DNA of 64,000 nt from Zoogloea oleivorans (GTDB lineage: Bacteria > Pseudomonadota > Gammaproteobacteria > Burkholderiales > Rhodocyclaceae). A program made the translations under genes and the position numbers. The first letter of the stretch is position 1. Each line of letters begins with the position of its first letter. Where the stretch lies: the NCBI RefSeq assembly GCF_008107625.1, contig NZ_SDKK01000004.1:59276-123275 (forward strand), given 5' to 3'. A model generated the notes under the pieces. The model worked only from the letters and a program-made list of their open reading frames with translations. It did no database searches and was not told the DNA's origin. Positions 24,417 through 28,588 of the stretch are shown here, in pieces.

Positions 24417-25663
24417 ATCCCACCGCGCAATGCTGATCACGATCGAATTCTGATCAGTTTCTTCGGCACATAACCGCCGTCGCCGGCAGCGCCGTCCCGT
24501 TTTTGCCTCGAATCGCCTCGGGCAGCGGCGATTCGGCCAATTTCTGGCGTCAGAAGGCCTCGATTCCGGCCTTCTGGAGATAGACCAGCCGCTTCAGGTT
24601 GTAGCAGGCCGCCATCATCGTCATCGCAAAGTTCGCGCGCGCCCGGCCGATGGTGCGCAGCAACTTGCCGCCCATCTGCTCGATGGCCCCGAACACGTGC
24701 TCGACCCGCGCACGCGTCTTGGCGATGCGCTTGTTGCGTCGCTGCTGGCAGTCGGACAGTGGCTTGTTGCGATGGCCCTTGCGTTGGATCTGGTTGCGGA
24801 AACCGTTTTCCTTCAGCCAGGCTTCCCGCTCCGCCGACGGATAGCCCCGGTCGGCATAGACGTCCCGGCTCGTGTTGGCCGTATCGAACACGTTGTCGAA
24901 GTGCTGGCTGTCGTGCGTGCTGGCCGTGTCGGTCTCGATCTTGCGGATGATCTTGTACTTCATGTCGACGTTGATGGAGAGCTTGTAGCCGAAGTGGCTC
25001 TTGCCGTGTTTCTTGGTCCAGGTGGCGTCGAGGTCCTTCTGGCGCCGCTTGGCGGGCTTCCAGGCGGCCGGCATCGCGCCTTGCTCAATCAACGCTTTCT
25101 CGCCCCGGCTGTTGTGCTGCTTGGGCGCAGGCACCAGGGTCGCGTCGATGATCTGACCACCGCGGGCGATGAAGCCCTTTTTGAGCAGCTGCGCCGAGAC
25201 GCCGTCGAACAACGCCTTTGCGCCGGCTTCGCCGATGCGGTTCTCGAAGGTCCACACCGTGGTGCGGTCGGGAATGTTCGTTGCGTTCGCCAGCCCGCAG
25301 AAGCGCTTGTAGCTCATGCGATCAAGCAGCTGGTACTCCATCTGCTCGTCCGACAGGTTGTACAGCCGCTTCAGGACCAGGATGCGCACCATCGTCTCGG
25401 TCGGGTACGGCGGGCGGCCACCCTGGGGGCTGACCGGCCGGGGCGCGATGCGATCGACCTCGGCCGCCAGCGCCACGAAGTCGATGTAGGACTCGATCTC
25501 GACCAGCGGATCGCCCAGGGTATCGATCTTCTTGCGGTGATGTTCGTCTGCGAACAGGTCGGTCTTGATGGCGCTGCGCGGTTTCATCGGAGTCGGCTCG
25601 GGGCGGATTCAGAACGATGCAATTTTATCAAGAGTGGGCGAGTCGAGGTTTTTCGAGGCGCCC
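24385..25663 (-). mobile_element. IS5-family insertion sequence, 1279 bp
   Basis: The ends are imperfect 17-bp inverted repeats: GGGCACCTCGAATAACC (24385-24401) and the complement of GGGCGCCTCGAAAAACC (25647-25663), 15 of 17 matching. They are flanked by the 4-bp direct repeat CTAA (24381-24384 and 25664-25667), matching the YTAR target preference of IS5. One transposase gene is inside, intact. The preserved target duplication suggests a fairly recent insertion. Confidence 0.93.
24550..25587 (-). CDS. IS5-family DDE transposase
   Basis: 345 residues. An N-terminal DUF772-type domain (GGRPPYPTETMVRILVLKRLYNLSDEQMEYQ) is followed by the DDE catalytic core: first Asp in IIDATLVPAP, second in VYADRGYPS, Glu in RARVEHVFGAIEQMGGK. 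It lies 76 bp from the right end and 165 bp from the left end of the element. It appears full length and may be active. Confidence 0.95.
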   Translation of the reverse strand: MKPRSAIKTDLFADEHHRKKIDTLGDPLVEIESYIDFVALAAEVDRIAPRPVSPQGGRPPYPTETMVRILVLKRLYNLSDEQMEYQLLDRMSYKRFCGLANATNIPDRTTVWTFENRIGEAGAKALFDGVSAQLLKKGFIARGGQIIDATLVPAPKQHNSRGEKALIEQGAMPAAWKPAKRRQKDLDATWTKKHGKSHFGYKLSINVDMKYKIIRKIETDTASTHDSQHFDNVFDTANTSRDVYADRGYPSAEREAWLKENGFRNQIQRKGHRNKPLSDCQQRRNKRIAKTRARVEHVFGAIEQMGGKLLRTIGRARANFAMTMMAACYNLKRLVYLQKAGIEAF

Positions 25664-25822
25664 CTAAGTTGTTGTCGGAAAATAGGAGTGGGAAGCGCGG
25701 CTGATCTGTACATGAATGGTGACTTATGCGAAGATTAAGGTAGATTCAGTGTACGTAAAGAAAATTATCAGAAAGCCTAAATTTGCATTCTTTAGTTCTC
25801 GTTAAAACGCATAGGAGAAGTG

Positions 25823-26026
25823 ATGATGGGAAGTTTAGATTTGACTTTTGAAGTTACCCAGAATGATATGACAGGTAAGACATATTCCGCGGGTTGTACA
25901 TCGGGAGGTTCGAGTGGCTGCTGCACCGCCATTTGTTCCGGGGGTTGTAAGTCCCGTATTGATCAAGCGTCTCAGGCTGCATGGGATCAATATCTGGAAG
26001 TTAATACTGGCTTACTGCAGTACTAA
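25823..26026 (+). CDS. Cys-rich peptide, putative RiPP precursor
   Basis: 67 residues with an ideal AGGAG five bases before ATG 25823. Layout: a polar N-terminal leader-like part (GSLDLTFEVTQNDMTGKTYS), a Cys/Gly/Ser block at 23-44 with Cys at 25, 33, 34, 38 and 42 (CTSGGSSGCCTAICSGGC), then a 23-residue C-terminal part ending in LLQY. The Cys/Ser/Thr/Gly block resembles core regions of heterocyclised or thioether peptides. Directly downstream are a terminator and two E1-like enzyme genes. No database family is recognised; a metal-binding or disulphide peptide is the main alternative. Confidence 0.7.
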   Translation: MMGSLDLTFEVTQNDMTGKTYSAGCTSGGSSGCCTAICSGGCKSRIDQASQAAWDQYLEVNTGLLQY

Positions 26027-26050
26027 TAAATTACCATTTACTATCAAAGG

Positions 26051-26078
26051 ACCGCTCTGTAAAAAGAGCGGTTTTTTT
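26051..26078 (+). terminator. intrinsic terminator/attenuator between peptide and first E1 gene
   Basis: Stem ACCGCTCT (26051-26058) pairs with AGAGCGGT (26065-26072), six-base loop, then seven T to 26078. The next base begins the ATG of the first E1-like gene. Partial read-through would make much more peptide than enzyme mRNA, a common layout for precursor peptides. Confidence 0.85.
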
Positions 26079-27209
26079 ATGCTCAACGAAACCTATAAAC
26101 TAAAAGAATCAATCGATGTGTTTGTCTCAGAAACCGAGTCTCCGGACAAAGTTTTAATTATCTTCCACAAAATGACTACGCGCGACAGAATTGAAATTAT
26201 TGCTGGAAAAGGAGTGGCAGAATTCTTGGCTTTGCTTGATGGAAAAACAACAACAGTAGATATTTTGAGTAAACTTGGTAATTTTGACAATGACTCAGCA
26301 GCCAGTTTAATTGAATTTCTTAGCAGTCAACGCTTGATAGTAAACTTCACGGAACGCCCTCCTGAAAACCAGAGATATAAGCGGCAGATAGCATATTTCG
26401 ATGATTTGATTTTAGACCGACCGGGGCACTCAACGCAGGAACAACTAAAAAGCAAGCATGTAACAATATTTGGATGTGGCGCAGTCGGAGGTTCTATTGC
26501 AGAGATTCTGGGGAGGGCGGGAGTGGGAGAGTTTTTACTGATCGATTACAAGCGAGTTGCAGAAGGAAATTTGGTGTGCGACACCTACTCAACGCGCAAA
26601 GATATAGGCAATTACAAAACTGACGTTTTAGCTGCCTTTCTGAATACTATCGACAGCAACATAAATATCTCCACCATCAACGAGCAGTTACTCCCCCACA
26701 CAGATCTATCATCATGGATTCCAAAAAATACAAGTTTGGTTATCAACACATGCGACGAACCTTACATTGGTCACACCTCACTGAAGATTGGAAGGCACTT
26801 ACATCAACAGGAGATTCCTTTTTATGTTGCAGGTGGTTTTGATGCCCACTTAATGAGCTCTGGCGAACTAATTTTCCCCCCTTTCACCCCCTGTATTGAT
26901 TGTGCACAAAAAACCTTCTCAGTCGCACTTGAAAACTGGAAGCCCACGTACTCCTCTATCGAGGACAGCGATGAGAATATTTCGTTTGAGACTACGAATA
27001 ACTATATCGCAGGAGGCTCTGGTGGATTTGTCGCACTGAGCGCCTTTTCGGCGAACTTGGCTTCATTGAGAATTCTAGAATTCATTTCCGGTGACTCATC
27101 CATTAATTTCAATACCGTCAGATATGAGTATCTAATCAACTCTGGATTCACGACCGAATTTGAGATGCAAAAACAGGAGAATTGTTGTGTTTGCAACGAC
27201 AAAATTTAG
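26079..27209 (+). CDS. RRE-like/E1 (ThiF-MoeB) fusion enzyme, first of two
   Basis: 376 residues. Residues 1-90 look like a PqqD/RRE-type winged helix (GKGVAEFLALLDGKTTTVDILSKL; LIEFLSSQRLIV). The E1 domain has the nucleotide loop GCGAVGG (132-138), Asp226 in NTCDEP, and two CxxC pairs (272-275 and 369-372), the structural zinc site. At the position of the SNxxRQ arginine motif it has GNLVCD (163-168), so the activating Arg seems lost. The start codon directly follows a terminator T-run and has no good ribosome-binding site. AT-rich, unlike the host. It overlaps the second E1 gene by 23 bp. Confidence 0.8.
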   Translation: MLNETYKLKESIDVFVSETESPDKVLIIFHKMTTRDRIEIIAGKGVAEFLALLDGKTTTVDILSKLGNFDNDSAASLIEFLSSQRLIVNFTERPPENQRYKRQIAYFDDLILDRPGHSTQEQLKSKHVTIFGCGAVGGSIAEILGRAGVGEFLLIDYKRVAEGNLVCDTYSTRKDIGNYKTDVLAAFLNTIDSNINISTINEQLLPHTDLSSWIPKNTSLVINTCDEPYIGHTSLKIGRHLHQQEIPFYVAGGFDAHLMSSGELIFPPFTPCIDCAQKTFSVALENWKPTYSSIEDSDENISFETTNNYIAGGSGGFVALSAFSANLASLRILEFISGDSSINFNTVRYEYLINSGFTTEFEMQKQENCCVCNDKI

Positions 27210-28287
27210 ACTTCGTCAAAGCATTGGCATTGTTGCCAATCAAAACACTATTGAATTTTTTCGGGCCAATACAAGAACTAGCGTTTCATTAAAAATGAAA
27301 CCTGACGGAGTCATTGATTTTCTACGGAACTTTAACGGAAAAAACTCTCTGGATTACATATGTCAGTTGCTTCCGAAAACTCCGCCCGATCAGATTGAAA
27401 AAATCGCTCTTTTTCTTCGTGATAACTTTGTCTTAATTGAACACGATCTAGATTACACCACGGAGTATATTTCATACTATTACCGACTATTAAATTTACT
27501 AGAAGATTTTTTCCATAGAACTAGCGATGTAATTGGTGCCCTCGAAAAAATCTCAAAATCACAGGTAGCCATTATTGGGCTTGGAGCCGTCGGAAGCCAT
27601 ATCTCCCTATATCTTGCAAGAGCTGGGGTTAAGAAATTTATCCTAGTTGATCCAGACAAGGTTGATGTCAGCAACATTCATCGACAAGCATACAGCGAGT
27701 CGAATATTGGAGAGTTAAAGACAACATGTTTGGAACGGAAAATCAAAGAAATTTCACCTCATGCGATAATCAAAAAAATAGAATACCCCCTTAATAAAGA
27801 TTTTTTTCTAAGCCAAGAATTCCCAACAGATGTTGATTTAATTATTAATTGCGCAGACGAACCCAGCGTTGATTACACAAGCTCCATTGTGTCTGAATAT
27901 GCCATGAGTCACACAATCCCTCATATTGTTGGCGGGGGCTACAACCTTCATCTAACCCTAATAGGGCAGACGATAATCCCATACGAAACAGCATGCTATA
28001 AATGTTTTGACTCAAAACTCACTGAAATCAACGCCATTGAGTTTCTTGGAATTAGGCGTCTAGATAGAGAAAATAGAAAGCTCGGTTCATTCTCCCCACT
28101 TTCTGGGATTGCTGCCAGCCTGGCTTCGCTTGATGCCATCAAGGTTATTGTTGGGGCAAATAACTTTCTGCTGCAGACGAATAAACGGATTGAGTTTAAT
28201 TCAAAAACAAAAACTTTTAATGCAATTGATGTCCCGAGGAATCCAGCATGCCCATGGTGTGCCACTAACCGACACTTAAAGAAGTAG
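27187..28287 (+). CDS. RRE-like/E1 (ThiF-MoeB) fusion enzyme, second of two
   Basis: 366 residues from GTG 27187, preceded by AGGAGA at seven bases. The N-terminal ~90 residues again look like a winged-helix/RRE domain (KMKPDGVIDFLRNFNGKNSLDYICQLL). The E1 domain carries all usual elements: GLGAVG (131-136), SNIHRQ (162-167, the conserved SNxxRQ), Asp225 in NCADEP, CxxC in ACYKCFD and CxxC in PACPWCATN near the end. It should adenylate a carboxylate, as MoeB, ThiF and MccB do. Probably the active subunit of a pair with the preceding protein (inference). Confidence 0.82.
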   Translation: MFATTKFRLRQSIGIVANQNTIEFFRANTRTSVSLKMKPDGVIDFLRNFNGKNSLDYICQLLPKTPPDQIEKIALFLRDNFVLIEHDLDYTTEYISYYYRLLNLLEDFFHRTSDVIGALEKISKSQVAIIGLGAVGSHISLYLARAGVKKFILVDPDKVDVSNIHRQAYSESNIGELKTTCLERKIKEISPHAIIKKIEYPLNKDFFLSQEFPTDVDLIINCADEPSVDYTSSIVSEYAMSHTIPHIVGGGYNLHLTLIGQTIIPYETACYKCFDSKLTEINAIEFLGIRRLDRENRKLGSFSPLSGIAASLASLDAIKVIVGANNFLLQTNKRIEFNSKTKTFNAIDVPRNPACPWCATNRHLKK

Positions 28288-28428
28288 CTGACTGCTGGGC
28301 ATGTACAAGCCTTTAGTGCTTTAGCGATCCAGGCCAAGGTCCATAACGTTGAATCATCAAACGAACGTCGGCATACAGGATCAAGGATCCGCTTGCACAA
28401 ATTAACGGATGGTAGAAGCAACTGTTAA

Positions 28429-28577
28429 CAGGGTGATGCAAAAGTAGAAATACAGACCCGAAAAAATATGACGACCTCTCAGAACAGCCTGTATGCCATT
28501 TTTTTCGAGGCGGTAGGGGTGAAGAGACCCCCGAAAACATCGTTTATGACGGCGCAAAATAGTTTTGCATCACCCTG
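28429..28577. mobile_element. 149-bp MITE-like element
   Basis: Perfect 15-bp terminal inverted repeats CAGGGTGATGCAAAA and TTTTGCATCACCCTG, flanked on both sides by TTAA (28425-28428, 28578-28581). No coding capacity. An internal imperfect inverted repeat lies around the A and T runs at about 28458-28510. It sits between the E1 cassette and the LysR gene. The remaining part of the 28288-28588 gap (28288-28424) holds nothing I recognise. Confidence 0.7.
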
Positions 28578-28588
28578 TTAAGTCCAAC

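Follow-up and report, generated by a model that had tools for sequence, protein, structure and literature searches.

A conserved gene set for a Cys-rich peptide and two unequal ThiF-like enzymes, apparently an undescribed kind of ribosomal peptide pathway

We describe a three-gene locus in a 64,000-nucleotide stretch of Zoogloea oleivorans DNA (contig NZ_SDKK01000004.1, positions 59,276 to 123,275 of the forward strand; hereafter the window), which encodes a small Cys-rich peptide followed by two ThiF-like enzymes of the E1 type, E1a and E1b. The gene set is real and conserved, is shared with a small number of distant bacteria and represents an apparently undescribed subfamily of ThiF-like pathways for ribosomally synthesized and post-translationally modified peptides (RiPPs), of which the window holds an incomplete copy. 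We consider it very probable that peptide and enzymes are related as precursor and modifying machinery of RiPP type, and lean slightly towards a fuller outline (the final linkage set aside) in which E1b is catalytic, E1a is its partner and the product is directed at DNA. A first-pass annotation of the window had read the locus as a RiPP cassette, and this largely holds: the 67-residue peptide, whose segment CTSGGSSGCCTAICSGGC places five Cys within 18 residues, and the two overlapping ThiF genes agree with the coordinates and with the ThiF and CxxC matches.

The precursor, E1a and E1b genes recur in the same order in seven further loci, one on an Acinetobacter plasmid, one on a Moraxella plasmid and five in genomes of the window's phylum (G200, G107, G1036, G1077 and G1371). 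The first-pass annotation had looked to such recurrence for support and had named a peptide missing beside E1 homologues as evidence against it; at none of the seven loci with both E1s is the peptide absent, and an adjacent precursor gene lies 5' of E1a and E1b in all eight. Homology and gene order, like the conservation and residue patterns described below, are established directly. The plasmid loci come from a tblastn search of 72,556 plasmid records, in which pXBB1-8 of Acinetobacter johnsonii (53 and 54% identity to the two E1 proteins) and pNP7-2 of Moraxella osloensis (51 and 50%) match over nearly the full length; they are the only records above 50% identity to both E1s, and each has an annotated small hypothetical protein directly 5'. 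Genomes were searched with E1a alignments or an E1a profile. Three of 398 genomes drawn from the phylum matched (G200, G107 and the window's own), as did six of 392 in the family of G200, namely G200, G1036, G1077 and three with weak, single matches (G1130, G1119 and G913; in G1130 the E1a-like frame at C7:171047-171736 contains two in-frame stops), and two of 345 in the order of G200, which were G200 itself and G1371. The last of these is the cleanest test of recurrence, because the enzyme profile found the locus before the peptide was sought; the peptide and a fourth, UvrA-like gene were recognised there only afterwards. Closer to the window, its own genome was alone in giving a strong E1a match among the 399 genomes of its order, the 249 of its family and the 23 of its genus (itself included), and the weak single matches in the order came from 256-aa frames in G676 and G754. 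Queries with the G200 and G1077 loci gave zero DNA-level matches in E. coli genomes.

A profile built from the seven other precursors, with the window left out, was compared with all 1,039 six-frame window segments of at least 30 amino acids. It placed the window peptide at the top (E = 1.2e-20; runner-up 0.045) and gave it 69.8 bits, versus 13.6 bits for the best of 2,000 shuffles; with G1371, G107 or both removed from the profile, E was 1.3e-19, 2.9e-20 and 4.9e-21, respectively. The eight precursors are 63–72 residues long, end in Tyr and share a simple anatomy: a strand-like N-terminal part (LDLTFEV), a Cys block, a variable linker of 12–20 residues from the Cys block to a Trp, and a C-terminal block, W54...QY67 in the window, whose length from the Trp to the last residue is 14 in all eight, each ending QY. 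Invariant besides Met 1 are C25, S31, C33, C34, C38, W54, L58, N61, G63, Q66 and Y67 (window numbering), and an acidic residue (D/E) immediately follows the Trp in 8/8, at position 13 from the end. C42, which is the fifth Cys in the window peptide, is not common to all, and the hydrophobic-alternating N-terminal part (LDLSFEVV-like) is seen in six precursors, those of G1371 and G107 being divergent. The first-pass annotation had expected a variable Cys core, whereas four Cys are invariant in all eight loci and both the Cys block and the C-terminus are conserved. Between G200 and G1036, the one pair usable by a simple counting method (dS 0.9–1.9; the other pairs tried lay near or beyond saturation), the ratio of nonsynonymous to synonymous substitution rates (dN/dS) was 0.105 for the precursor (71 codons), 0.075 for E1a, 0.078 for E1b and 0.078 for the UvrA-like gene; by this count all four genes are under purifying selection between the two genomes. 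Because the C-terminus is fixed to its last residue beside a carboxylate-activating class of enzyme, the pattern suggests activation at the C-terminal carboxylate, and we hold this to be moderately probable.

Both enzymes match the Pfam ThiF domain (1.2e-26 for E1a, 1.5e-41 for E1b) and carry two zinc-type CxxC pairs per protein, which are kept in 16/16 aligned sequences. When residues are compared in an alignment of eight E1a, eight E1b and four reference E1s, the two enzymes look unequal, with an ATP site that is complete in E1b and eroded in E1a. Specifically, the GxGxxG loop, the Asn and Arg of the NxxR motif, and R166, K178 and D224 are intact in all eight E1b, with the Gln after the NxxR Arg kept in seven; R166, K178 and D224 align with R182, K195 and D239 of the MccB copy. 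In E1a the third Gly of the loop has become Thr in three of eight and the NxxR Asn is altered in another count of three, while the Gln after the Arg is altered in 8/8 (compared with 1/8 in E1b). The Lys and Asp of the ATP site (K180 and D226 equivalents) are kept in all eight E1a and the Arg in seven, the loss being in the window, whose copy alone has R167C together with H168D. An R[YF]xRQ motif is present in seven E1a (as RYxRQ in the window) and in none of the eight E1b; its second Arg, which we take to be the trans-acting finger as in MoeB, occupies one alignment column in all 16 proteins. For EnfB, the accessible part of PMC12250964 lists R167, K180 and D225 as ATP/Mg residues, and in our own reading of the motifs these would be the ATP-site columns compared here.

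The closest solved structure for both enzymes is MccB (phmmer E = 2.2e-16 for E1a and 1.4e-27 for E1b), PaaA also matches, and the E1b profile matches MccB at E = 5.1e-41. Foldseek comparison of low-confidence models with MccB gave E = 2.8e-17 and 5.8e-15 at whole-chain template modelling (TM) scores of just 0.54 and 0.50. A maximum-likelihood tree with a TcdA-type root recovers an E1a clade at 100% and an E1b clade at 97% without G107 (65% with it). It also groups E1b, MccB and a Lactiplantibacillus plantarum enzyme at 91%; by these comparisons E1b is nearer than E1a to the single-enzyme RiPP E1s. The L. plantarum enzyme is a single ThiF protein, 34% identical to E1b and encoded on a plasmid (L010 1957-4415) beside a major facilitator superfamily transporter; in the tree it groups with an MccB-like protein (86%). 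Loci L006 and L007 from a scan of genome contigs look TcdA- and MoeB-type by translation; they were rejected as kin of the pair and served as alignment rows and outgroups. Because the E1a and E1b clades branch in a similar order, with weak inner support, the pair is old and not the product of a recent duplication. An intact E1b beside an eroded E1a, together with the similar trees, favours a heterodimer, and one with E1b as the catalytic subunit seems to us rather probable. Alternatively, both enzymes could be catalytic and each use a different carboxylate (E1b that of the C-terminus, E1a that of the acidic residue after the Trp) to close two rings. Such a scheme would use the D/E side chain next to the Trp in 8/8 precursors and the equally constant K180 and D226 equivalents of E1a, and has a precedent in PaaA, which modifies Glu side chains (PMC12250964, accessible part); it fits poorly with an ATP loop whose Gly is Thr in three of eight E1a and with the Arg to Cys change in the window, and we regard it as improbable.

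The first-pass annotation took the locus for a pathway of the E1 pair alone. For the family this is wrong, because a UvrA-like gene is a fourth member in all six relatives that can be assessed. It encodes an ATPase of 706–727 residues and lies directly 3' of E1b wherever the contig continues (Acinetobacter, Moraxella, G200, G1036, G1077 and G1371; the contig of G107 ends), the gap from E1b being −29 to +8 nt. All six proteins have the UvrA DNA-binding domain PF17755 and none has, at E 1e-5, PF17760, which we take to be the UvrB-binding region of UvrA; the 941-residue UvrA of the window genome has both (PF17760 at 2.3e-35). Their matches in the PDB include 7sh1, presumably the structure of Ecm16. 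As the available portion of PMC10413001 describes, uvrA-like genes have served to find clusters for DNA-binding compounds. That the product is directed at DNA is, in our judgement, a reasonably probable reading.

From these patterns we infer the chemistry, the heterodimer and the target. The Cys-rich precursor of 63–72 residues would be modified by the E1/ThiF-like pair, probably as an unequal heterodimer. E1b would bind ATP and adenylate a carboxylate, most likely that of the C-terminal Tyr, and E1a, its ATP site eroded, would act as the partner that supplies a precursor-binding domain, an arginine finger and a scaffold. Past this point the mechanism is speculation. The activated carboxylate might be attacked by an internal nucleophile, for cyclisation or ligation; the nucleophile would most likely be one of the four invariant Cys thiols, giving a macrothiolactone, with the indole of the invariant Trp or another group as further possibilities, and taken alone the proposal of an attacking Cys is a rather doubtful one. 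DNA would be the target of the product, from which the UvrA-like protein would shield the producer wherever the cluster is complete. The window copy, which keeps the precursor and the enzymes and not the UvrA-like gene, would be partial, and so perhaps silent or non-toxic. A still wider proposal, that these loci define a class of DNA-binding or DNA-damaging ribosomal peptides, with an obligate pseudo-E1/E1 heterodimer and with UvrA-like ATPase protection as in echinomycin and daunorubicin producers, is possible, and we put it forward tentatively. Eukaryotic E1s such as AOS1-UBA2 are also unequal pairs, a parallel to such a pseudo-E1/E1 heterodimer.

Several observations weigh against this account. 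Outside the window E1a may be active, because the Lys and Asp of its ATP site are kept throughout and the Arg in 7/8. The N-terminal domains are a second point. The first-pass annotation proposed an RRE-like (RiPP recognition element) N-terminal domain joined to an E1 domain in each enzyme; the E1 part stands on the Pfam matches, the RRE part on predicted topology only. AlphaFold models from a four-row alignment have low confidence (mean predicted local distance difference test score, pLDDT, of 56.0 for E1b and 63.3 for E1a), and both begin with four strands followed by three helices, whereas an RRE has three strands before the helices. The N-terminal profiles of E1a and E1b match each other (97.6%), profile comparison with the N-terminal region of one MccB was not significant (E = 0.014 and 0.22), and a comparison of the E1b region with solved structures matched none (best E = 0.096); we treat the domains as likely, predicted RREs. 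Third, no UvrA-like gene separates E1b from its 3' neighbour in the window, and by itself such a gene is weak proof of a DNA target, because UvrA-like proteins are also encoded on plasmids that lack an E1 pair: 774 plasmid records match, and the 40 listed have mostly about 30% identity. RiPP neighbourhoods near such genes have been tallied before, though, as far as we have seen, not this one; in the available text of PMC10413001, 642 actinobacterial clusters have a uvrA or uvrA-like gene at most 40 kb away, with RiPPs as one of eight classes, unstudied there. For G1371 we used a precursor that starts at an inner ATG (64 residues); the listed open reading frame starts earlier and would give 87. 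Annotations and translations, with no family search of the neighbours, reveal no protease or transporter common to the loci, so export is unexplained by the neighbouring genes. Finally, only one of 18 genomes in the family of G107 matches E1a, leaving 17 other members without a match, and, because this search and those of the window's order, family and genus were near-empty, the gene set is rare and patchy in distribution.

A different use of the enzymes would be a pathway of the thiazole/oxazole-modified microcin (TOMM) type, in which the E1s would only serve as docks between the precursor and a YcaO encoded at another site in the genome, with azolines or azoles as the outcome. The substrate is Cys-rich, both enzymes match the SagC-type model TIGR03603 below its cut-off (33.9 and 22.7 against 187.65 bits), two YcaO genes exist elsewhere in the window's genome, and YcaO is found above cut-off in three of five relatives. 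However, in these three it lies on a different contig from the cluster, and a YcaO search of the other two, G1371 (99% complete) and the draft genome G107 (91% complete), gave no match. The first-pass annotation's statement that no YcaO is adjacent is confirmed: none occurs on the contig of the cluster in the window's genome or the five relative genomes, the Acinetobacter and Moraxella chromosomes being outside this search. A complete ATP site in E1b is unexpected for a mere dock, and the accessible part of PMC12150305 describes ThiFs beside YcaO as docking domains only. Since YcaO is off the contig in three relatives and unmatched in two, a YcaO-dependent reading is unlikely, and TOMM synthesis with a distant YcaO was rejected on this distribution.

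Two further readings make direct use of the fixed C-terminus. If the locus were of microcin C type, E1b would add a nucleotide there and the product would be a Trojan-horse peptide-nucleotide. MccB is indeed the nearest solved relative, but it is homodimeric (PMC12250964, in the part available), and the precursors are 63–72 residues long and end in Tyr, not 7 residues ending in Asn. Moreover, the companion genes of an E. coli MccB-like locus, itself named MccB from its gene content, were not seen here by annotation and translation. Wrong precursor length and end and these unseen companions led us to reject membership of the microcin C group, and we give the idea very little weight. Least probable of all is a ubiquitin-like conjugation system, in which an AOS1/UBA2-like E1 heterodimer would join the small protein through its C-terminus to cell proteins. 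An unequal E1 pair and matches of PADLOC E1-E2 models to the ThiF domain are compatible with conjugation, but the peptide ends QY and not GG, MccB is the nearest solved relative, and no E2, protease or JAB gene was seen beside the trio, where no family search of the neighbours was made. Four invariant Cys are, to our knowledge, no feature of ubiquitin-like modifiers.

Returning to the proposed precursor and E1 pair, the layout of the window locus is given in the table. An alternative GTG start at 25820 would give a 68-residue precursor, an AGGAG resembling a Shine-Dalgarno sequence stands immediately 5' of the ATG, and E1a and E1b overlap by 23 nt. The terminator noted in the first-pass annotation corresponds to a hairpin (−18.3 kcal/mol) with a T run after it, in the 52-nt gap between precursor and E1a. 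The same gap folds at −13.9 to −19.4 kcal/mol in six relatives and more weakly (−10.0) in G107, all these values being without shuffle control; the T run abuts the E1a start codon in only three of eight loci (window, Acinetobacter and G1371).

Features of the window locus (positions in the window)
Feature	Start	End	Strand	Details
Precursor peptide gene	25823	26026	+	67 aa; start ATG 25823, stop ends 26026
Terminator- or attenuator-like hairpin and T run	26046 (about)	26077 (about)	+	T run abuts E1a ATG
E1a	26079	27209	+	376 aa; predicted N-terminal RRE-like domain (topology only) and ThiF domain
E1b	27187	28287	+	366 aa; predicted N-terminal RRE-like domain (topology only) and ThiF domain
Low-G+C island	25700	28420	.	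no UvrA-like gene 3' of E1b

The island has a G+C content of 0.38–0.48 per 500-base block, and the remaining blocks between 20 and 34 kb of the window have 0.54–0.70; because its G+C lies below that of the surrounding blocks, the three-gene island was probably acquired. A transposase gene, IS5-like by the look of its sequence, lies 5' of it at 24550-25587 (−) and may have brought or trimmed the island. After E1b follows a 157-base element (28425-28581) with 22-nt inverted ends (95% complementary), present in a single copy in the genome and sitting near the place that the UvrA-like gene has in relatives. Elsewhere in the window genome, matches to the UvrA-like protein are pieces of 30–45% identity in UvrA and in a 1,934-residue frame, with fragments of ATP-binding cassette type, and the best is a 35%-identical piece. 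The long frame (G000 contig C38:16416-21785, on the window's own contig and about 63 kb before the trio) has several UvrA-type ATPase matches and is apparently a double-length UvrA.

The window copy might also be a dead remnant of the cluster. The missing UvrA-like gene, the R167C and H168D changes unique to its E1a, the transposase gene on the 5' side and the inverted repeat on the 3' side would all agree with decay, but all three frames are open. Counting positions invariant in the other six loci, with G107 left out, the window E1a breaks 4 of 101 (range 0–26) and E1b 7 of 107 (range 0–16), no worse than some orthologues; the precursor breaks 4 of 21, the joint highest with G1371. On balance we think a dead remnant unlikely, though a possibility to be taken seriously.

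At other loci, the pXBB1-8 cluster (L008 1-7040) lies just 3' of genes annotated as a BREX phage-defence system, and genes that look mobilisation-like stand 3' of the cluster in G200 (L038 11891-13514), which suggests a mobilisable element there. A defence-system identity for the trio itself was rejected, as the PADLOC matches are at domain level only, and so was a phage gene: three viral scans gave no relative and one gave a single partial ThiF-type match (L049). Phage records searched with the G1077 E1a yielded nine with cover of at most 47%. Moraxella phages Mcat22 (L066 564-1040) and Mcat17 have a ThiF-type stretch without an annotated feature, 28–29% identical to that E1a. Both E1s have a match (4.8e-15 and 4.1e-33; residues 80–359 of E1b) to phrog_19840, a phage protein family of unknown function in PHROGs, and because of this match single E1-like enzymes of the same sort may also travel on phages.

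Among the matches listed in a full-text literature search, no title or abstract described a ThiF pair beside a precursor of this kind, or a ThiF-type RiPP cluster that contains a UvrA-like gene. Neither 'heterodimer' nor 'UvrA' appears in the available part of the 2025 review PMC12250964, a 2025 paper on RREs mentions neither UvrA nor a tandem arrangement, and mentions of UvrA in two other RiPP papers are irrelevant. The present family may sit as unnamed nodes among the 27,400 RRE-ThiF candidates networked in the IndF paper (PMC12150305, in the part available). ThiF-like enzymes are a young and growing source of peptide chemistry, and a two-enzyme system with an eroded partner would, if true, show a route to E1 heterodimers in a system of three or four genes. 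The neighbouring UvrA-like gene points to DNA as the target of a ribosomal peptide; we know of few RiPPs that reach it.

Compared with the RiPP systems built on ThiF-like adenylyltransferases (MccB, PaaA, GrcB, EnfB and IndF), the locus shares the small peptide gene, the absence of YcaO, the R/K/D of the ATP site and, as predicted here, an N-terminal precursor-binding domain joined to a ThiF domain. It differs in having two tandem, unequal E1s where these have one enzyme each, MccB and PaaA being homodimers in the accessible part of PMC12250964, as well as a longer precursor, in which four Cys are invariant and a C-terminal block of 14 residues is fixed, and, in relatives of the window locus, a UvrA-like fourth gene. 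As in the thiolactone of GrcB and the indolylamide of IndF, the invariant Cys and Trp would permit attack by either on an activated carboxylate; unlike in those systems, no radical S-adenosylmethionine enzyme, protease or transporter was seen beside the trio, and the linkage is a proposal. The UvrA-like proteins of the relatives resemble the self-resistance proteins Ecm16 and DrrC in having the DNA-binding insertion and no match to the UvrB-interaction region, beside biosynthetic genes, whereas the window locus has no such gene; the echinomycin, daunorubicin and mithramycin clusters are not ribosomal, unlike the present gene set. Finally, E1a may be likened, by analogy, to the Ocin-ThiF and E1-like TOMM scaffolds TclI, HcaF and McbB as a precursor-binding scaffold; their partner is a YcaO, and the partner here is apparently a second, intact E1.

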